In this document: one piece after another, positions 8,833 to 56,175 of the stretch
How the letters are laid out: each line of letters begins with the position of its first letter
Position numbering within the stretch: position 1 is the first letter of the stretch
Origin: Hippea sp. KM1
GTDB taxonomy: Bacteria > Campylobacterota_A > Desulfurellia > Desulfurellales > Hippeaceae
Direction of reading: 5' to 3'
Assembly (NCBI RefSeq): GCF_000526195.1
Contig: NZ_JAFP01000001.1
Coordinates: forward strand, 718,001-782,000
Length of the DNA stretch: 64,000 nucleotides
The notes under the pieces: model-generated
What the model was told of the DNA's origin: nothing
Database searches by the model: none
Seen by the model: the letters and a program-made list of their open reading frames with translations, nothing else
Program-made: the position numbers and the translations under genes

Positions 8833-9720
8833 ATGAGGGTGCATGCTGAATGTTATCAATGTTTTATATCTCAGGCCATACGCTCAAGCAGACTGTTTTA
8901 TTCGGATAGAGACCATCTGCTAAAGCCTGCTCAAGAGGTGGTAAGGGTTTTGCAGGATATAGATGTTGAACTCCCCCCTCCTTTGATTAGCGAGGAGGTC
9001 TATGGCACAATTAGAAGGAGCCTGGGCATAGATGACCCTTACAAGCAGATAAAGAAGAAATACAACGACATAGCATTGAAGTATGAAGAATTTGCCAAAA
9101 AACAGATAGAACAGGCAGACGATCCCCTTCTTTATGCTGTAAGACTCGCCCTGGCCGGCAATATAATCGATTTTGGTTCCCAAATCGGGAGTTTTAGCCT
9201 TGAAAATACCATAGATGAGGTTGTAAGAAACCCGCTTGATTTGACCGATTTTGAGCTATTCAAGGGGGATTTGGAAAAATCCAAAAGGATAGTTCTGCTT
9301 GCAGACAACGCCGGTGAGATAGTGTTTGATAAGATCCTGCTTGAAACGATAAGGGGTCTGTATCCCGAAAAAGAACTGTTTGTTATTGTCAGGGGCGGTC
9401 CTATAATAAACGATGTCGGCTTAGAGGATGCTATCTATGTGGGAATGGATAAAATCGCAAGGGTGATAGATTCTGGCCAGCTCATTCCGGGATTCTGGCC
9501 TGATTTTGCAAAAGGCGAGTGCAAGGCCGTTTATGAGAGTGCCGATATTATCATATCGAAGGGGCAGGGCAACTTCGAGACCTTAAGCGAGTTTGAGGAT
9601 AGGCGAATCTATTTCCTCTTTTTGATAAAATGCGGTGTCGTTGCCCAATACTTGGGTCTTAAGAAGCTCTCCAAGATATTCATAAGAAACGACGAGCGAT
9701 GGGCAAGACTGCGGGCGTAG
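8833..9720 (+). CDS. DUF89/ARMT1-like domain protein
   Basis: 295 residues. It opens with ECYQCFISQA, the N-terminal Cys-x2-Cys helix of the DUF89 (damage-control phosphatase/ARMT1-like) family of archaea and bacteria, and carries LLADNAGEIVFDKIL near residue 157, whose Asp-Asn-Ala-Gly is the metal-binding DNAG core, plus KGQGNFETLSE near 240, also family-typical. Relatives hydrolyse phosphate from damaged or reactive sugar phosphates and nucleotides; the substrate here is unknown. It overlaps the next gene by 22 bases and heads a six-gene overlapping run that ends with folC. Confidence 0.85.
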   Translation: MRVHAECYQCFISQAIRSSRLFYSDRDHLLKPAQEVVRVLQDIDVELPPPLISEEVYGTIRRSLGIDDPYKQIKKKYNDIALKYEEFAKKQIEQADDPLLYAVRLALAGNIIDFGSQIGSFSLENTIDEVVRNPLDLTDFELFKGDLEKSKRIVLLADNAGEIVFDKILLETIRGLYPEKELFVIVRGGPIINDVGLEDAIYVGMDKIARVIDSGQLIPGFWPDFAKGECKAVYESADIIISKGQGNFETLSEFEDRRIYFLFLIKCGVVAQYLGLKKLSKIFIRNDERWARLRA

Positions 9721-10847
9721 ATGAGGCTGGAAGGGGGCCGTGGGCTGGCCCGGTTGTTGCGGCCTGCGTAATACTGAAAAAAGACATTCCCCATCTGGAC
9801 GATATAGACGATTCCAAGAAGCTTTCGGCCAAAAAGAGGGAAGAGCTTTACAAAATCATAAAGGAAAACTCCATCTACGGCATAGGCGTTGCCTCAAATA
9901 AGGAGATCGATAGATTGGGCATAGTAAAAGCCGTTGAGCTTGCCATAAAGAGGGCGATAGAGGTGATGGATGAGAAGCCATCGTTTTTGCTTATCGATGG
10001 CAAGGATAGATTCGATTTGCCCATAAAGTACAAAACCATAGTCGATGGTGATGAGAAGGTAAAATCGATAGCAGCGGCAAGCATATTGGCCAAGGTTTGG
10101 CGTGATAGGTATATGGAGCTTGCAGCCGACATATACCCGAGGTATGGCTTTGAGAAACATAAGGGTTATGGCACAAAGGCGCATAGCGTTGCACTTGAAA
10201 AATACGGGCCGTGTCCGATTCACAGGTTTAGCTTTAAGCCGATTCAGAGGATTTTAAAAGAAAGGAGCAAAAAGCCGAGATTGCTTCTGCATGCCTGCTG
10301 CGCCCCTTGTGCGACAAGTGTAATAGAGAGGCTAAAGGGTGATTACGATGTTGAGGTCTTTTTTTACAACCCCAACATACACCCCAAAAGGGAGTATGAG
10401 ATAAGGTTGGAGGAGATCAAGAGGCTCTGTCAGCACCATGACATAAAACTCCATGTGGGCGAATACAACCCAAAAAGATGGGTTGATATGGTTAAGGTGT
10501 ACAAGAATGAGCCTGAGGGTGGCAAGCGATGCGTTTTGTGCTATGCGGATAGGATGAAACAGACGGTTAAGTTGGCAGAAGAGCTTGGCTTTGATTACTT
10601 TACCACAACGCTATCGGTTAGCCCTCTTAAGGATTATAGGAAGATAAAGTCGATAGGTGATGTGCTTGCTGCAAGATACGGCATAGATTTTGAGGATACG
10701 GATTTTAAAAAGAAGGACGGGTTCAAGCGTTCCGTGGAGTTGTCCAAGGAGTTTGGTTTTTACAGGCAGACTTACTGCGGATGCGTCTATTCCAACATCG
10801 AGCAGAAGAGAAAGAGGGGTGTTTTACATGGAAAAGGTTCAGATTGA
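9699..10847 (+). CDS. Fusion: ribonuclease HII + epoxyqueuosine reductase QueH
   Basis: 382 residues in one uninterrupted frame. Residues 1-190 are RNase HII: DEAGRG (D8, E9), LLIDG (D100), KVWRD (D136) form the four-acid metal site, and the length is complete. Residues 193-382 are QueH (DUF208): HACCAPC (C200, C201, C204), RCVLC (C278, C281) and YCGC (C360, C362) supply iron-sulfur and metal ligands, with YNPNIHPKREYEIR between. RNase HII removes ribonucleotides from DNA; QueH reduces epoxyqueuosine in tRNA to queuosine. The join falls at RILKERSKKPRLLLHA. Both domains look intact. The start ATG overlaps the preceding gene. Confidence 0.92.
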   Translation: MGKTAGVDEAGRGPWAGPVVAACVILKKDIPHLDDIDDSKKLSAKKREELYKIIKENSIYGIGVASNKEIDRLGIVKAVELAIKRAIEVMDEKPSFLLIDGKDRFDLPIKYKTIVDGDEKVKSIAAASILAKVWRDRYMELAADIYPRYGFEKHKGYGTKAHSVALEKYGPCPIHRFSFKPIQRILKERSKKPRLLLHACCAPCATSVIERLKGDYDVEVFFYNPNIHPKREYEIRLEEIKRLCQHHDIKLHVGEYNPKRWVDMVKVYKNEPEGGKRCVLCYADRMKQTVKLAEELGFDYFTTTLSVSPLKDYRKIKSIGDVLAARYGIDFEDTDFKKKDGFKRSVELSKEFGFYRQTYCGCVYSNIEQKRKRGVLHGKGSD

Positions 10848-46620: not shown

Positions 46621-47757
46621 TTATATCCCGTATTTGTCGTTTAGGATGTTTGCCGCCAACGAGAGCAGGTCGATGTCTTTTTCTTCTAATATAATTGCAA
46701 ATCTTGCCCCGAAATCTTCATTCTTGTAGCGGTAAGTTCCAATGAGAAGGTGGCTTTCTTTTTCTTGAACAACAAAGAACTTTATGCCCTTTCTTATCGA
46801 TTTTTGCTTGTTGTAATGTGTGTCTTTGCATGTTATTATCCATCTGTTTTCTGCCCAAACCTTATCAACAAACTCCTTAAAACCCCTTGGATAGTGGTGT
46901 TGGCTTAAAGAGGGCGCCTTTCTCTTGCTTTCAGGCAAATCTTTTAATGTTTTCTTCTCTTTTAAAGACAGATAGAATGTTTCAAGGTATAGCGTCCCCA
47001 TTGCGTTTAATTCATACAGCGATTCGCCGTTTTCTTCTATCGAGTCTAAGAATATAAGGATTTTTTCTCTATCGTAGCTTTCTATTTCTTCAATCTCTTT
47101 AGAATCGAGTGTTTCGCCTTTGTTTAGTTTGTGGAATAGATGGGAATAATTCCCTATCAAGGTGTAATCCAACGAAACGGGCATTGGAGGGAAGTCTATT
47201 ATCTCTCCAAAGCTTTCGTGTTTGTAAAATACCGGTATTCCCAGGGATTGTCCGAACAGAACCGCCAATGCAATCTGTGCCTTATACCCCCCTGTCGCAT
47301 CAATCGCTATATTTTTTGAACCGTAAAGGCGTGTTATGTTTCCTATTTTCCTTATTAGGTTCCTTAATCCGTGTTTTTTAAAATCCTTTGGGTTGTTGGG
47401 CTTGAGTTTCTCTATTTTTTCGACCTTGACATTGATTTTTCTTTTGCTGAAGTATTTTTTAAGTATATTGCCTGTTTTTTCACCTTCTTTTGTGTCCGAT
47501 ACAAGGAAAACGATATTCTCGATGTCCAACCACTTTTTCTTTTGTGCTTCTTCTATTGTATTTATTTCAGCGCCGCAGATTCTCTCTGTTGGATTTAGGC
47601 TCAGCAATAGGTCGGTTAGTTTCTCGTAATTTTCCGATTGGTAAGCCTTATAGATTTCTGCTTTGGTTTCTGTGTTGTTTTCCGATTTCTTTAGTCCTTC
47701 GATATTTGTTATAAGGCTTGTGCCGACGGTGCAGATAAGCGTGTTTCTTTTGTTCAT
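46621..47757 (-). CDS. CRISPR-associated CARF-domain effector with unassigned C-terminal domain
   Basis: 378 residues. The N-terminal ~210 residues match the TIGR02619-type CARF domain that senses cyclic oligoadenylate: LICTVGTSLITNI at 7-19, FLVSDTKEGEKTGNIL near 84, and the second-half motif IAIDATGGYKAQIALAVLFGQSLGIPVFYKHE near 150. A helical, winged-helix-like region (~230-265) follows, then ~110 basic residues including WIITCKDTHYNK and LLIGTYRYKNEDFGARFAIILE. That tail has no PD-(D/E)xK or HEPN signature I can recognise; a RelE-like mRNA interferase, as in CARF-RelE proteins, is one possibility. RBS AGAGGAAAG. Near the array and Calp operon. Confidence 0.85.
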   Translation of the reverse strand: MNKRNTLICTVGTSLITNIEGLKKSENNTETKAEIYKAYQSENYEKLTDLLLSLNPTERICGAEINTIEEAQKKKWLDIENIVFLVSDTKEGEKTGNILKKYFSKRKINVKVEKIEKLKPNNPKDFKKHGLRNLIRKIGNITRLYGSKNIAIDATGGYKAQIALAVLFGQSLGIPVFYKHESFGEIIDFPPMPVSLDYTLIGNYSHLFHKLNKGETLDSKEIEEIESYDREKILIFLDSIEENGESLYELNAMGTLYLETFYLSLKEKKTLKDLPESKRKAPSLSQHHYPRGFKEFVDKVWAENRWIITCKDTHYNKQKSIRKGIKFFVVQEKESHLLIGTYRYKNEDFGARFAIILEEKDIDLLSLAANILNDKYGI

Positions 47758-50434: not shown

Positions 50435-52241
50435 CCCTCATTCCGCACCTCTCCCTCCATTTATACCATAAAACCCCATATAAGTTCCACCCAACAGCTC
50501 CAGTATTAGCCTATGCTTATCTTCCAACCCAACAATTTGTTCTTGGTTGTTTAGAATAAGTAGGTGTATGGCAAAGAAGTTCTCAAACACCCACCTTGCT
50601 GTTGGGTTCTGAATGGGTTTCCCAAGCTGATTGGGAAAGGTCTTGTTTTTATTCTTAAGCTCACTTCTTATTCTGTATTCCAAGGCAGCATATACAAGTA
50701 AGGATATAGTCATTATCATAAGCATTGCTTCAATGCGTTTTGGATTTTTCAAAAACATGGCATCACTTAGAAACTCCGGTGATTTTAGAAACCTAAAGCC
50801 CCTTTCTATCCTCTGTTGTGATTTGTACTCATCAAGCAGTTCTTTTTCTGATAGTTTCATGTCATTGGTTGCAAGGATAAAAAGACCACTCTTTTGGTTC
50901 TGCTTCTGTTCTATGTACCCTTTGTTTGGTTTGGTATCTATAACCCAGTAGTATTCATAGTAATCCGGTTTGGCATCCGATTTTGGTCTTCCTTTTGTCT
51001 TGTATTTGGGCTTTGATATGAGTTTAGCTTCTGTTATGGTTAGGCACTCTAACTTACTTGTTTTTTCTTTAAGTACCTCTTTTGCGTCAGCTTCGCAGAA
51101 AAATCTTCTCCTCTGCAGTTTCTCAATGAGTTTCATTTCCTGTTTTTCTTTTTCTTGATACTCTCTCTTTATCGTTTTATCCATTTTTGATTTAGCATAG
51201 CTGCTTTTATACAGAACCCATTTCTGTCTCATTCCCTCATAATCTACTATATATGGGATAGCTTGATAGTTCTCATCAAGCTGGATAAATTCCCCTTCAT
51301 TGTGGTTTCTGAGTATCTCTTTTGCCTTCTTTAGTTTAGATGGAACCCTTGAGATAAAAAGCATACCGTTCTTTTTAAACTCCTCCATTGTTTTAGAGCT
51401 AAAGAGAGCAGCATCGGCTATTACCTTTGTTTTTGTATCGTTTGCACTTCTTAAAGAGTTGATATGCTCCTTTACTATATTGGCAAATGTCTCTGCATCT
51501 ATTTGATTGCCATCTGCTGGTTTCATCCACACAGGAATGCCTGCTTTGTGTTCCACTATTAGGTTAAGCACCACCTGGTTGAGCTCTGGGTGGTGGTCTC
51601 TGCTGTAACCCTGGGTGATAAAGACTGGGGTTGGTTCATAGTCTTTTTCTTCTCTTCCCTTCATCTTTTGGTTAGGATATTTGCCATCAAGATGAAAGCT
51701 TGTGCTGTCTAAGTGTATGGTTGACGGTTTAAGGTTCAGTATCTTAACTGCTTTGGCTGCTATTTTCTCATATAGCTCACTTACACCGTATTCAAAGAGT
51801 TTATCTAATGTTCTGCCCAGTGCATCATCGTTGAACCACGAAGAATCAACATCCCTTCCGAATAACCTCTTTAGCGGTTTATCCTTGAAAAAGAGTGGTG
51901 TTAGATAGAGCTGTTTGTTGACATAACCAAGACCGTTAAGGATCATTGCCTTTGTTGCTTCACCGTAGCTTGGGTTCTTTGATTTACTTGATGATGGTAT
52001 TGCTTCATCTATGGTTTCTTTAATCTTCAGTTCATCTATCATACCGGCTATCAGTCCTAAGTGATCCATGTTCTTGATAACTGCCTTTTGCTGTGTCATT
52101 TGAATACCCCCTCTTTTTAGGGGTAGGTGAAAGCATTTTCTGTTCCATTTGTTTTACAACCCTTTTCATTATTTTTCGCTCTGTGCGTTTACTGTGCATT
52201 TGGGTTTGGTTAAAATGGAGGTTTGGGTGCGGAAGGGGGGA
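50435..52241 (-). mobile_element. IS1634-type insertion sequence
   Basis: About 1.8 kb with imperfect terminal inverted repeats: left CCCTCATTCCGCACC, right end complementary as CCCCCCTTCCGCACC, each followed inward by a CCTCCATTT block. Flanked by a 5-bp duplication TATAA (50430-50434 and 52242-52246). Joining the flanks restores an uninterrupted 137-bp tandem unit, which confirms the insertion point. One transposase gene, apparently intact. Confidence 0.85.
50438..52099 (-). CDS. IS1634-family transposase
   Basis: 553 residues. N-terminal DUF4277-like region (DHLGLIAGMIDELKIKETIDEAIP), then a DDE nuclease domain of the IS4 superfamily: HLDSTSFHLDG near 147 (first Asp), VIADAALFSSKTMEEFKKNGMLFISRVPSKL near 240 (second Asp), and YKSQQRIERGFRFLKSPEFL near 455 with the catalytic Glu of the YREK-like motif. 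RBS AGAGGGGG. Full length, no frameshift; the stop lies in the left inverted repeat. Confidence 0.93.
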   Translation of the reverse strand: MTQQKAVIKNMDHLGLIAGMIDELKIKETIDEAIPSSSKSKNPSYGEATKAMILNGLGYVNKQLYLTPLFFKDKPLKRLFGRDVDSSWFNDDALGRTLDKLFEYGVSELYEKIAAKAVKILNLKPSTIHLDSTSFHLDGKYPNQKMKGREEKDYEPTPVFITQGYSRDHHPELNQVVLNLIVEHKAGIPVWMKPADGNQIDAETFANIVKEHINSLRSANDTKTKVIADAALFSSKTMEEFKKNGMLFISRVPSKLKKAKEILRNHNEGEFIQLDENYQAIPYIVDYEGMRQKWVLYKSSYAKSKMDKTIKREYQEKEKQEMKLIEKLQRRRFFCEADAKEVLKEKTSKLECLTITEAKLISKPKYKTKGRPKSDAKPDYYEYYWVIDTKPNKGYIEQKQNQKSGLFILATNDMKLSEKELLDEYKSQQRIERGFRFLKSPEFLSDAMFLKNPKRIEAMLMIMTISLLVYAALEYRIRSELKNKNKTFPNQLGKPIQNPTARWVFENFFAIHLLILNNQEQIVGLEDKHRLILELLGGTYMGFYGINGGRGAE

Positions 52242-52395
52242 TATAATCCAAAATTTAAAGAAATTTTCCCTTCAAAAGCGGGAGCAACTAAAAATTTTGA
52301 ATTCTAAATTGTAGATTTTAGATTGGTCGTTTGTGCAAGGATAAAACTAATTTAACCGTAAATCCAAAATCCAAAATTTATAATCCAAAATTTAA
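52242..52395 (+). repeat. Third tandem CRISPR-derived unit, adjoining the array
   Basis: Same ~137-bp unit as at 50169-50434, core at 52268; its core reads GGGAGCAAC, i.e. the CRISPR repeat with five bases deleted. It runs straight into the degenerate terminal repeat of the CRISPR array, whose core is again 137 bp further on. Confidence 0.8.
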
Positions 52396-52886
52396 AGAAA
52401 TTTTCCCTTCAAAAGCGGGAGTAGTGCAACTGATTACCATTCTTGGGGTTCTTGAGTTAATTTTGTTTTGTCGTAATTCCCTTCAGAAGCGGGAGTAGTG
52501 CAACCTTGTCAGGAAATGGCTTAGAGAGGCAAAAGAGACAATCCCGGGTGTGAAGTCGTAATTCCCTTCAGAAGCGGGAGTAGTGCAACCTGTTGGTAAA
52601 GCCATACACAAGGTTTACAAAGGCGTAAAACATGGTCGTAATTCCCTTCAGAAGCGGGAGTAGTGCAACTTCCTTATATCTTGATTAGGTTAAAGGAGGT
52701 AAAAATGAGAGTCGTAATTCCCTTCAGAAGCGGGAGTAGTGCAACAAAATATAAAAGGAGGATAAGAAATGGTTAAACTAGTCGTAATTCCCTTCAGAAG
52801 CGGGAGTAGTGCAACGGCTGCACGGATGAGAATGAATGATGAGGACTCAGAGTCGTAATTCCCTTCAGAAGCGGGAGTAGTGCAAC
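52396..52886 (-). CRISPR. CRISPR array, 7 repeats and 6 spacers
   Basis: 35-bp repeats, plus strand beginning GTCGTAATTCCCTTCAG and ending GGGAGTAGTGCAAC, at 52470, 52555, 52635, 52711, 52781 and 52852, identical to each other. The copy at 52396-52430 has lost its first seven bases and has one internal change, marking the distal end. Spacers measure 39, 50, 45, 41, 35 and 36 nt. Read on the minus strand, the repeat begins GTTGCA and ends ATTACGAC, like Thermus type III repeats, so transcription runs leftward. No cas1, cas2, cas6 or cas10 lies in the window. Confidence 0.97.
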
Positions 52887-52913
52887 AGGACTTCCAAGAA
52901 GCCTATTTGAATA

Positions 52914-52942
52914 AGGATAAGACTTTATAGTCATATTGTCAA
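52914..52942 (-). promoter_or_regulatory. Leader promoter of the CRISPR array
   Basis: Minus-strand TTGACA (52942-52937), 17-bp spacer, TATCCT (52919-52914), starting transcripts near 52907, about 20 bases before the leader-proximal repeat. The rest of the gap 52943-53261 is AT-rich with no gene I can support. Confidence 0.65.
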
Positions 52943-53261
52943 CTTTTTGTAAAGCCTTATAAAAACAGCCTTTCCCGCTGTATGAGAAAAAGCCATCATT
53001 TTATTGTAAAAGACCACTTTTTGACAGGCTTTTTAACAATATAAAAAACCTGCCTATTTGCGCTTATTCCCATCTTTATGCCATTTATGTTAGAAAGTCA
53101 AGGAAAAAATAATGAAAACCAAGCTATACAAAAATTTTTGTTAAACAATAAAACATGTCAAAGATATTGCACACTATCAATTTGCTATTTACCCCTATCT
53201 TTACCTTGCAAGCTTGCTCAATATCGGCACAAACGCTTCGATGGGTTTTGGTCAGGTTAGA

Positions 53262-54716
53262 CTAAACCTTCAGACTGGCTAAGTTAAAGACCTTGAAGTA
53301 AGAAGTCTCTAAAGGTTCGAAATTGTAAACCTCGATATCGTCGAAGGTTTCAACAGCAACACCCAATCCGAACGCCAACAGGACAGGGCAGGCGAAAAAC
53401 ATTAACCTCTTTTTAGTTGTTATTTCCTTTAGCTTGTTGTAATGCGAGTAGATCTCATTTACATAGATAGCCCAGTCGCTTTCCTCTAAATTGCCCCTAT
53501 CTTTGGCCTCGCACGATGCCAGGATGTAATTTTCAAAGTTATTTTTCAAGAATTTTCTTATGTCGCCCTTTGGATTGTGTGATGCAGCGTAAATGGAAAT
53601 GGCAAGGATGTCGGTTTCCTGGGTATCTGTGTCCTTTTCGCATTCTATATGTTCTGGGTTTTTATTAGGCGATTTCAAGAGTCTTAAGTTCCTTTTGGAG
53701 AAGTCTAAAACGACTTTGAACTCTCCTGATGTGTAATGGTAAACAACAAAAGGTTCTTTACAGCCAACCATTGCCCCAAGGCCAAAGGCGAATGTAGCAG
53801 GCCCAAGCAGGCATAAATGCAATATGCAGGTTTTGTCCTTTAGTTTTTCTTTTAGATGCACGATTTTTCCATAAGCCGTTCGTAATATGCCTTCCCAGTC
53901 TCTATTGGGTAAGAATTTACCATCTATATAAAAGGTGAAATCGTCGTCTTTTAAATCGTATAGCCGTTTGGCAAGCTCAAAATCCGTGTTTTGTGCGATT
54001 TGATAGAGGTTTGTCAAAGCCGCCTGTTTTGGTGTTGTATCCTTTTTCGATTGCTTTAAGGCAATGCTAAAGGGGATATTTATTGTGTCTGAGTTTAAGA
54101 GTATATCGAGCTCTTTTAGGTTTTTTATGATTTCTGGATGGATGAGCTTTTTTGGGTAAGCGGCTTTTATTTTTTCTTTTAAAAAATCCACCTCTATTAC
54201 CTTGCCCTCAAAATTTAAATCCCCCGTGAATGCGTAATCTTTTAGTTTTTCGTCATTTTTACAAATAAGCGCTGAAGATAAGGCAAGTAAGAAGGATTTT
54301 CCTGTAAAATCGCCGTAGAATCCGACAAAAAAGTGTTTTCCCGTTAATTTTTCGACCACTTTAAGCTCATTTTCAATGCCCTTTTTGAATGAGAGGGTCA
54401 AATTTTTTAGCTCTATGACGAATAGTTTTATCAATTCTTGTTTATCGTTGTTGTTTGGGCTTACAGCAGGAAAGAACGCCTCTTTAATGTCGTTATTCAA
54501 CAGTTCCTCTGCAGCTTGAGAGTCCATGCCTAAAGCCTCTGCCAAATCTTTAGGGTTTATTTGGTGCCTGTGTTCCCTTAAGAAAATCACTATCTTGCTT
54601 TTTAGTGTGTGTGGTGTGTTGTCATCCGATAGGGTGTTTAGTAGAAGTCTTTTGTGGTATTCATCAAGCGGCTGAGTGGTTGTTGAAATGTATTTTTCTA
54701 TTAAGCTTTGATTCAT
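53262..54716 (-). CDS. calpL: CalpL-like SAVED-domain Lon protease
   Basis: 484 residues. Residues ~100-222 form a Lon-type peptidase domain: GDFTGKSFLLALSSALI (135-151), YAFTGDLNFEGKVIEVDFLKEK (161-182) with the catalytic-Lys equivalent K180. Residues ~295-484 form a SAVED sensor: HLCLLGPATFAFGLGAMV (300-317) and FFACPVLLAFGLGVAVE (440-456), each like one CARF-derived half. The published CalpL is activated by cyclic tetra-adenylate and then cleaves CalpT. The usual Ser of the Lon GPSAG box is not at its expected place. ATGA overlap with calpT; the last gene of the operon. Confidence 0.88.
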   Translation of the reverse strand: MNQSLIEKYISTTTQPLDEYHKRLLLNTLSDDNTPHTLKSKIVIFLREHRHQINPKDLAEALGMDSQAAEELLNNDIKEAFFPAVSPNNNDKQELIKLFVIELKNLTLSFKKGIENELKVVEKLTGKHFFVGFYGDFTGKSFLLALSSALICKNDEKLKDYAFTGDLNFEGKVIEVDFLKEKIKAAYPKKLIHPEIIKNLKELDILLNSDTINIPFSIALKQSKKDTTPKQAALTNLYQIAQNTDFELAKRLYDLKDDDFTFYIDGKFLPNRDWEGILRTAYGKIVHLKEKLKDKTCILHLCLLGPATFAFGLGAMVGCKEPFVVYHYTSGEFKVVLDFSKRNLRLLKSPNKNPEHIECEKDTDTQETDILAISIYAASHNPKGDIRKFLKNNFENYILASCEAKDRGNLEESDWAIYVNEIYSHYNKLKEITTKKRLMFFACPVLLAFGLGVAVETFDDIEVYNFEPLETSYFKVFNLASLKV

Positions 54717-55555
54717 AAGGGTTCTATTTTTAGGATCTCTAACAGGGTTTGGGGGTGTTCTAATGTTGATTTTAGGATTAATTTTTTGGGCAGGAAGCCC
54801 TCAAATACAACTGCGTCTTTTGCATAGACCCTTGAAAGTGTCCCTGCATACTTCTCGTTGAAATAGATAACGAAGTTGTCATTCTCTTTTGTTATGTCGC
54901 CGTATTCTGAAACTATCAAGGCGTCAAATGATGCAGCGGCAAGCCTTTGGTTTAGGGTTTTTTCTAACCCCTCTATGTATTGGCTTAAATTAACGGTGGC
55001 CTCTTCTGCAATCTCTGGCTCATATCCCAGATCGGGCATGAGGAATAGGCTTCGCTTTCGTTCGTTTTCTTTGAAGAGTTCTTGATACGACCCGCTTCCT
55101 TTGATATACGAAAGCCCCGTTCTTTCTTTGGGCAGCCTATCTCCTTCGTTTATAAACCTCTGCATTATCCTTACATCATCTTCGCTTACCTGGTCTATTT
55201 TTATGGATCTGTCTAATACATCTTCTTCCACATATCTGATCAGGCTTTCGATAACCCATCTATGCTCCTTGCCGTCGACTATCAAGTCCTTATCCGAGGC
55301 AAGCTCCCAATAGGGTGAGGCTATAAAGACCTCATAGGGGCATTCTTCTGTGTCCGATATGACAAAATAGAGGCTTTCAAATTGATACACATCCCCGACC
55401 ATTGCCTCTTCCGATTCTTTGGATTTACCCTCTATTAGAGCCTGCGCTTTTTTTAAGTGTTGTATGTTGTTTTTGTTGATTTCTGTGTCTATGTTTTTTT
55501 GTCTGAATTCTAAGTCTTTTAGGTATTGCTCATATACGAATTTTAGCCATCTCAT
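54713..55555 (-). CDS. calpT: CalpT-like MazF-fold anti-sigma protein
   Basis: 280 residues. After a helical N-terminus (1-50), GDVYQFESLYFVISDTEECPYEVFIAS (54-80) starts a MazF/PemK-like barrel extending to about 165, then a separate C-terminal domain (~185-280). In the characterised Sulfurihydrogenibium system CalpT is a MazF homologue that holds the sigma factor CalpS until CalpL cuts it. Assignment rests on this fold, on the position between sigma factor and protease genes and on four-base overlaps on both sides. Sequence similarity to known CalpT could not be measured here. Confidence 0.8.
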   Translation of the reverse strand: MRWLKFVYEQYLKDLEFRQKNIDTEINKNNIQHLKKAQALIEGKSKESEEAMVGDVYQFESLYFVISDTEECPYEVFIASPYWELASDKDLIVDGKEHRWVIESLIRYVEEDVLDRSIKIDQVSEDDVRIMQRFINEGDRLPKERTGLSYIKGSGSYQELFKENERKRSLFLMPDLGYEPEIAEEATVNLSQYIEGLEKTLNQRLAAASFDALIVSEYGDITKENDNFVIYFNEKYAGTLSRVYAKDAVVFEGFLPKKLILKSTLEHPQTLLEILKIEPL

Positions 55556-56175
55556 CCTCTTCCCTCATAAAGATTAACGAATTCTGAGCATATTTCCGAC
55601 AAAAAGAAACTCTTTATTGCCGCATCGACTATGTCTATAGAAAACCTTTCTTTTTCAATAAACTCCTTTATTCTTTTGTGAGCCCTGCTTTTTGCCTTCT
55701 CAAACGAGGCAGCCGTTCTGTTTTCTGAGCCTTTTTGCAGAAGCTCCAGGCATAGGGCCTCTTTTTCTGTCTTTGTTAGCTCCTTTTTGCAGAGTTTTGC
55801 AAATTCTTCAGCTTCTATGCTGATTAATTCGTTCTTGGGGTGGGGCTTCTGTGTGTTTTCAAACTTCAATCTGTTTTTTATGAGCGTTTTTTTCCTTAAT
55901 TGGTCTATTAGGTGGTTTTTTGCTATTGATTTTATATAGGCTTCGATTCTTGCCCTGTTGTTTATGGCCTTTATGATTGTCTGCCTCTTTTTGATTATGG
56001 TCATTACCGTTTCATTTACCAGATCGTCTATATCCATAACATCTGCAAATGGACTGTCTTTTAGGTCTCTGATTGCGCAGGCTGCCTGGGTTTTTATTGT
56101 TTTTATAAGCATCTCTTCCTCGTTGGGTTTTAATGCTTCCCCTGTTAAATACCTTTTTAGTATCTCTTCCACCAC
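55552..56175 (-). CDS. calpS: CalpS-like ECF-type sigma factor
   Basis: 207 residues from a GTG start. Region 2 reads DIDDLVNETVMTIIKKRQTIIKAINNRARIEAYIKSIAKNHLIDQLRKK (core recognition and -10 contact), region 4 LTKTEKEALCLELLQKGSENRTAASFEKAKSRAHKRIKEFI (HTH). A ~35-residue C-terminal extension (DAAIKSFFLSEICSEFVNLYEGRG) is unusual and may contact CalpT. Freed by proteolysis of CalpT, it would redirect RNA polymerase during infection. It overlaps the upstream MazF-like gene by 19 bases and calpT by four. Confidence 0.85.
   Translation of the reverse strand: MVEEILKRYLTGEALKPNEEEMLIKTIKTQAACAIRDLKDSPFADVMDIDDLVNETVMTIIKKRQTIIKAINNRARIEAYIKSIAKNHLIDQLRKKTLIKNRLKFENTQKPHPKNELISIEAEEFAKLCKKELTKTEKEALCLELLQKGSENRTAASFEKAKSRAHKRIKEFIEKERFSIDIVDAAIKSFFLSEICSEFVNLYEGRG

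Follow-up and report, generated by a model that had tools for sequence, protein, structure and literature searches.

Strand bias among type III spacers has already been published (Vink 2021, PMC8482600; Artamonova 2020, PMC7515739), in both studies from mapped protospacers. In Thermus the bias was ascribed to selection (PMC7515739), and for fusions of reverse transcriptase and Cas1 (RT-Cas1) no strong orienting mechanism was reported (Silas 2017, PMC5576922). The Calp system (PMC12751052) links CalpL, CalpT and CalpS to a type III array. Here, we describe an array of clustered regularly interspaced short palindromic repeats (CRISPR) at positions 52396-52886, on the minus strand, of a 64,000-nt stretch of the heat-loving bacterium Hippea sp. 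KM1 (contig NZ_JAFP01000001.1, positions 718,001 to 782,000), hereafter the window. The genome is complete, at 1.74 Mb. We consider it highly likely that this is an orphan leader and array of the Hippea III-A family, read leftward, with guides antisense to the coding RNA of invaders, and usable only through the Cmr complex of the same genome.

The array and its repeat family

The array holds six spacers, 35-50 nt long, set between six identical 35-nt repeats and a seventh, degenerate copy at the left end, with the following features:

52396..52430, minus strand: degenerate leader-distal (last) repeat; core identical at 25 of 26 positions, outer left part diverged
52431..52469, minus strand: spacer 6, the oldest; plus strand weakly coding (D=0.65)
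52470..52886, minus strand: six identical 35-nt repeats, GTTGCACTACTCCCGCTTCTGAAGGGAATTACGAC in leftward reading; predicted 5' handle AUUACGAC
52505..52554, minus strand: spacer 5; open frame LVRKWLREAKETIPGV on the plus strand
52590..52634, minus strand: spacer 4; open frame VGKAIHKVYKGVKH on the plus strand
52670..52710, minus strand: spacer 3; on the target strand, SLYLD-stop upstream, then AAAGGAGG-N5-ATG, the start reading ATG AGA
52746..52780, minus strand: spacer 2; on the target strand, a stop codon, AAAAGGAGG-N7-ATG, then M-V-K-L
52816..52851, minus strand: spacer 1, leader-proximal; open frame AARMRMNDEDS on the plus strand
52887..53140, minus strand: leader with the promoter slot TTGACA-N17-TATCCT, its -10 ending 27 nt before the first repeat

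All repeat and spacer coordinates of the initial annotation match ours, and the degenerate terminal repeat lies on the left, at 52396-52430, as it had proposed. Its statement that every spacer is open on the plus strand holds for five of the six, the spacer at 52746-52780 having no frame open throughout. Such frames say little in any case, because at least five open spacers of six were reached by random window pieces in 98% of trials and by shuffled spacers in 58%. At the degenerate end, a 43-nt stretch (52379-52421) that includes part of the last repeat has an exact copy 137 nt upstream, at 52242-52284; this duplication adjoins AT-rich AATCCAAAAT repeats, which are also present left of the array L053.

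The window repeat has no further copy in its own genome at up to 3 mismatches. In relatives, arrays with the same repeat and leader adjoin, via the leader, cas1, cas2 and csm1-5, a complete III-A set (loci L055 and L077), which bears out the link to type III made in the initial annotation. The cas2 gene of L055 is shorter than the open reading frame length used and is hence unlisted; a CARF-nuclease gene comes after the csm genes there. The same cas1-cas2-csm set is found in L076, with no array in the stretch examined, and further type III loci (L094-L101) held no usable arrays. In the KM1 genome itself, Csm1 gave no match, the best match of TIGR02578 was the Cmr2 locus, below the cut-off, and no RAMP proteins were found outside the Cmr (III-B) locus. 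Because repeat and leader are linked to csm genes in relatives and the own genome has none, we class the window array as an orphan descended from III-A and not as a III-A system.

The arrays of relatives (L055, L077, L058, L054) share with the window array the repeat family, the leader, spacers of 34-50 nt and the antisense coding bias described below, but they have a cas1-cas2-csm operon alongside or close by, and the KM1 genome has none. The III-A repeats of Thermus thermophilus (NC_006462, L103) read GTTGCA...GGATTGCGAC, against GTTGCA...GAATTACGAC in the window; unlike the window array, the loci in that GC-rich host retain csm genes and a plain Cas1. The Cmr locus of KM1, about 0.4 Mb away, encodes a 704-amino-acid RT-Cas1 fusion and carries two arrays of a different repeat.

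Direction of transcription

The initial annotation had the array read leftward, on the strength of repeat polarity, the degenerate repeat and a promoter match, TTGACA-N17-TATCCT, on its right. This leftward-reading motif is present, at the position given above, and the surrounding sequence is conserved: about 250 nt right of the last repeat can be aligned with the corresponding flank of the repeat in Hippea relatives, and the left flanks of the same arrays show no comparable likeness among relatives. A promoter slot stands in the same place in 8/8 leaders, as TTGACA, TTGATA or TTTATA, and the -10 slots all end 27 nt short of the repeat. Four of the eight have precisely TATCCT there; in L049 and L058 the -10 is not conserved. 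This check covered 8 of 11 aligned leader rows, L050-L052 being omitted for an insertion at the slot. Read leftward, the repeat ends in ATTACGAC, whose last 8 bases are those of the Rhodothermus III-A repeat, the III-A repeat of Thermus differing at one base; for the Csm handle of Thermus, PMC8157118 gives AUUGCGAC. Leader conservation, promoter slot and repeat 3' end all support the same direction, and leftward transcription of the window array is well supported by these sequence comparisons. The conserved leader promoter would drive it, yielding guides with the predicted 5' handle AUUACGAC.

Two further features of the leaders were observed. Inverted repeats such as CTTGATAGTATTGCTATCAAG overlap the promoter slot in L056, L058 and others, and in the window at 52918-52945; they could be operator-like, or could mark paired divergent promoters. 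In genome G003, L050, L051 and L052 are scattered single or paired repeats with a leader, away from cas genes; an insertion whose ends are inverted copies, TCCAGCACTTACTT...AAGTAAGTGCTGGA, splits that leader.

Strand bias of the spacers

To determine which strand of the spacers is coding, each spacer was scored on both strands with a codon model whose training set was 147 host genes; its score is above 0 in 83% of sense pieces of host genes. The strand of the RNA that leftward guides would pair with was the coding one in all six window spacers (flip P 0.016; estimated sense fraction 1.00, range 0.63-1.00), in 22/29 spacers of other same-family arrays (P 0.0002; sense fraction 0.92, 0.71-1.00), and in 25/34 of the genome's own III-B arrays with RT-Cas1 (P 0.0003; sense fraction 0.93, 0.70-1.00). 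Type I-B arrays, used as controls and with identical spacers entered once throughout, gave 22/53 (sense fraction 0.34, 0.16-0.55). When spacers with a Shine-Dalgarno sequence and ATG (SD+ATG, see below) were left out, the counts were 4/4 in the window (P 0.06), 21/27 in Hippea III-A, 25/32 in III-B and 21/52 in I-B; the bias persists in the Hippea III-A and III-B sets. As an independent sign, of all spacer pairs compared in translation, the six that scored best were all pairs from the RT-Cas1 arrays, with both members on the target strand. The counts exclude eight spacers of the RT-Cas1 arrays of L079 (5/8 with D>0; these are also outside the SD+ATG count) and one spacer between the two L050 repeats. 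Among sets from other genera, Rhodothermus was the only clear one (12/18, P 0.012), with Fusobacterium at 2/6 and Arcobacter at 2/4.

The bias thus exceeds chance, and the statement of the initial annotation that the guides are complementary to coding RNA is supported statistically. Vink 2021 and Artamonova 2020 mapped protospacers, whereas the strand here follows from the codon model and SD motifs. The guides would pair with coding RNA of past invaders, in keeping with an RNA-sensing (type III) immune system. As in other type III systems, spacers would be acquired in both orientations, and those complementary to RNA would be retained as the useful ones; uptake both ways followed by selection is, by this analogy, the most likely origin of the bias. 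RT-Cas1 was rejected as its source: the cas1 adjoining arrays of this repeat family in relatives encodes a protein of about 305 amino acids without a reverse transcriptase, another repeat accompanies the RT-Cas1 of KM1, and the bias is equal in the III-A and III-B sets.

Spacers over translation starts

The initial annotation reported two spacers with a Shine-Dalgarno sequence and ATG. Both are in place, AAAGGAGGTAAAAATG in 52670-52710 and AAAAGGAGGATAAGAAATG in 52746-52780, each on the plus strand. With a strict motif (5 nt of Shine-Dalgarno, a gap of 3-10 nt, ATG), 2/6 window spacers qualify, both on the target strand (P ~0.012-0.033 at a background of 3-5%), the window being the discovery set. 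One reading of these figures is that start regions are preferentially sampled, either since RT-Cas1, which the genome encodes, takes transcript 5' ends, or since guides covering the ribosome-binding site protect best. Elsewhere, only 8/152 other type III spacers carry the motif: 2/29 in Hippea III-A, 2/34 in the RT-Cas1 III-B arrays themselves, 1/35 in Thermus, 2/26 in Thermocaproicibacter, 1/18 in Rhodothermus, 0/6 in Fusobacterium and 0/4 in Arcobacter, with 1/53 in I-B (identical spacers counted once in the I-B sets and the five outside sets). Random pieces gave 4.6% in a stretch of Thermus phage P23-45, 3.2% in a stretch of Campylobacter phage F370, 3.4% in the window and 2.1% in L050, so that 8/152 is about the background rate. 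Moreover, the window repeat family pairs with plain Cas1 in relatives. Preferential sampling of starts is therefore very unlikely, and the 152 other spacers give no support to the idea that type III spacers are generally enriched in start sites.

There is no enrichment of start sites, yet the strand on which they lie is informative: all eight motifs outside the window are on the target strand and none on the guide strand. In the five outside sets the guide strand was taken from the repeat end, which is an assumption save for Thermus. Of the claim that guides lie over translation starts, the two spacers and their orientation stand, without enrichment beyond the window. These spacers would be ordinary samples of tightly packed phage-type operons that serve as clear strand markers. 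In the open-licence literature searched, no report of a start-site preference of type III spacers was found, and the term "start codon" is absent from Vink 2021 (PMC8482600).

Protospacer searches and evidence to the contrary

The initial annotation had proposed comparing the spacers with phage sequences. The six window spacers, joined, gave no protospacer among the matches listed in a blastn search of 50,697 phage records. Records matched numbered 120; the 20 of these that were listed had E>=0.8 and 77-84% identity, all inside the two SD spacers, and we take them as chance matches of the SD type. Against 25 genomes of the class, the best non-array match of the joined spacers was 85% over 39 nt, across an artificial spacer junction. 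The same 25 genomes returned only self-matches for the RT-Cas1 array spacers, and self-matches plus one contig, G009:C79, for the other III-A spacers. In viral contigs, degenerate patterns for two window peptides gave 0 matches, as did the window repeat pattern. Patterns for two RT-Cas1 array peptides and the L055 peptide also gave 0.

Several results weigh against antisense guides. No protospacer was found for any of the six window spacers, so that their orientation rests on statistics. The one spacer of this family that could be mapped, spacer 1 of L055, agrees with G009:C79 at 36/45 nt, where the peptide FTIFAFLSVES is encoded on the opposite strand; it reads as sense, and because of this its guide would not pair with the mRNA. 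The III-A spacers of Thermocaproicibacter show no codon bias (13/26, with a model trained on only 9 genes), and Thermus shows only a trend (22/35, P 0.08). Spacer 1 of L055 is also oriented, relative to its only match, as expected if arrays of this family were transcribed rightward, in which case the guides would be of mRNA sense and unable to detect mRNA. With the conserved leader and promoter on the right, the degenerate repeat on the left, and a repeat end, ATTACGAC, that is identical in Rhodothermus III-A and one base off the Thermus Csm handle AUUGCGAC, we find rightward transcription barely credible, and retain leftward guides antisense to coding RNA.

The G009:C79 stretch (L119, L123) encodes TraT-like and methyltransferase-like proteins, judging from translations, and is probably a conjugative element.

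Neighbouring genes and other CRISPR loci

Right of the array lie Calp-like genes, all directed leftward; a transposase gene lies to the left, and a CARF effector gene farther left:

46621..47757, minus strand: CARF effector of the CARF7 group (CARF_DUF2103/CARF_RelE), from profile matches
50438-52099: transposase gene, adjoining the degenerate array end
53262..54716, minus strand: CalpL-like SAVED-Lon protease (CRISPR-Lon; PADLOC SAVED4-SAVED_LON_TM, E=1.9e-142; Pfam SAVED)
54713..55555, minus strand: CalpT-like protein, between the L and S genes (weak PADLOC CRISPR-T match, E=3e-7)
55552..56175, minus strand: CalpS-like sigma factor (Pfam Sigma70_r2, E=3.2e-5, 24.1 bits versus a cut-off of 24; sigma models)

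As in the Calp system (CalpL/CalpT/CalpS; PMC12751052), a SAVED-Lon gene follows T-like and sigma-like genes near a type III array. Unlike that system, the window has no adjacent type III effector operon, and its T-like gene matched weakly.

Because III-A cas genes are missing from the genome, the guides can act today only if the Cmr III-B complex uses them. Such use would produce cyclic oligoadenylate, which could in turn act on the CARF effector and on the CalpL/CalpT/CalpS-like genes next to the array. That orphan III-A guides are loaded by the distant Cmr complex, with its RT-Cas1, and that the signal drives the adjacent sigma-factor response is a tentative and rather unlikely proposal. 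A competing possibility, which overlaps with our preferred explanation in that the latter does not presuppose present use, is a dead array, the inert remnant of a III-A locus since lost, with an old strand bias. No csm genes exist in the genome, the stretches searched yielded a single kind of Cas6, of the I-B type (Cas6b, in the I-B locus), there are just six spacers, and the transposase gene lies beside the degenerate end. Set against this are six identical repeats, an intact promoter and leader, and intact CalpL-like and CARF genes nearby. We regard a dead array as a serious contender, at somewhat less than even chances.

Other loci of the genome show further irregularities. In the I-B locus (L015:9580-10293), a TAG interrupts the cas1 frame, and a separate match to the C-terminal part lies about 1.2 kb off; I-B adaptation may be broken. 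A Cmr1-like frame of 218 amino acids (L013:19240-19896) covers just the C-terminal portion of the Cmr1 profile and may be truncated. In the III-B arrays (L013:1971-3102 and 9074-10608), several spacers encode, on the target strand, variants of the same peptides (INFIKRSAPQY/VNFIKRTAPMY/FIRRTAPQF; LLLKDKPNEY/LLLKDKPDNY; WFKTGFYVG/WFKYGFCSG; EDFLLSLRK/EDFLLGLQK), and two spacers overlap by 15 nt. Such redundancy suggests that one very small target, at a rough estimate a few kb, was sampled again and again: a small virus, perhaps an RNA phage, or a handful of abundant transcripts. Neither peptide patterns nor the 25 genomes revealed a source.

Implications

The window array is an ordinary, well-supported case of known type III behaviour. 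Added interest comes from its position as an orphan beside Calp-like genes, in a genome whose sole type III complex found is a III-B complex with RT-Cas1. A host codon model, together with SD+ATG strand markers, offers a means of reading in which direction a type III array runs and which strand it targets when protospacers are lacking, with I-B arrays as a built-in control. If the guides were indeed used by Cmr and coupled to the sigma factor, the type III system would be a split one, with separate loci supplying its array, its sensor complex and its transcriptional output. The Hippea strain suits a direct test of whether a III-B complex can use an orphan III-A array, with Calp-like sigma coupling.
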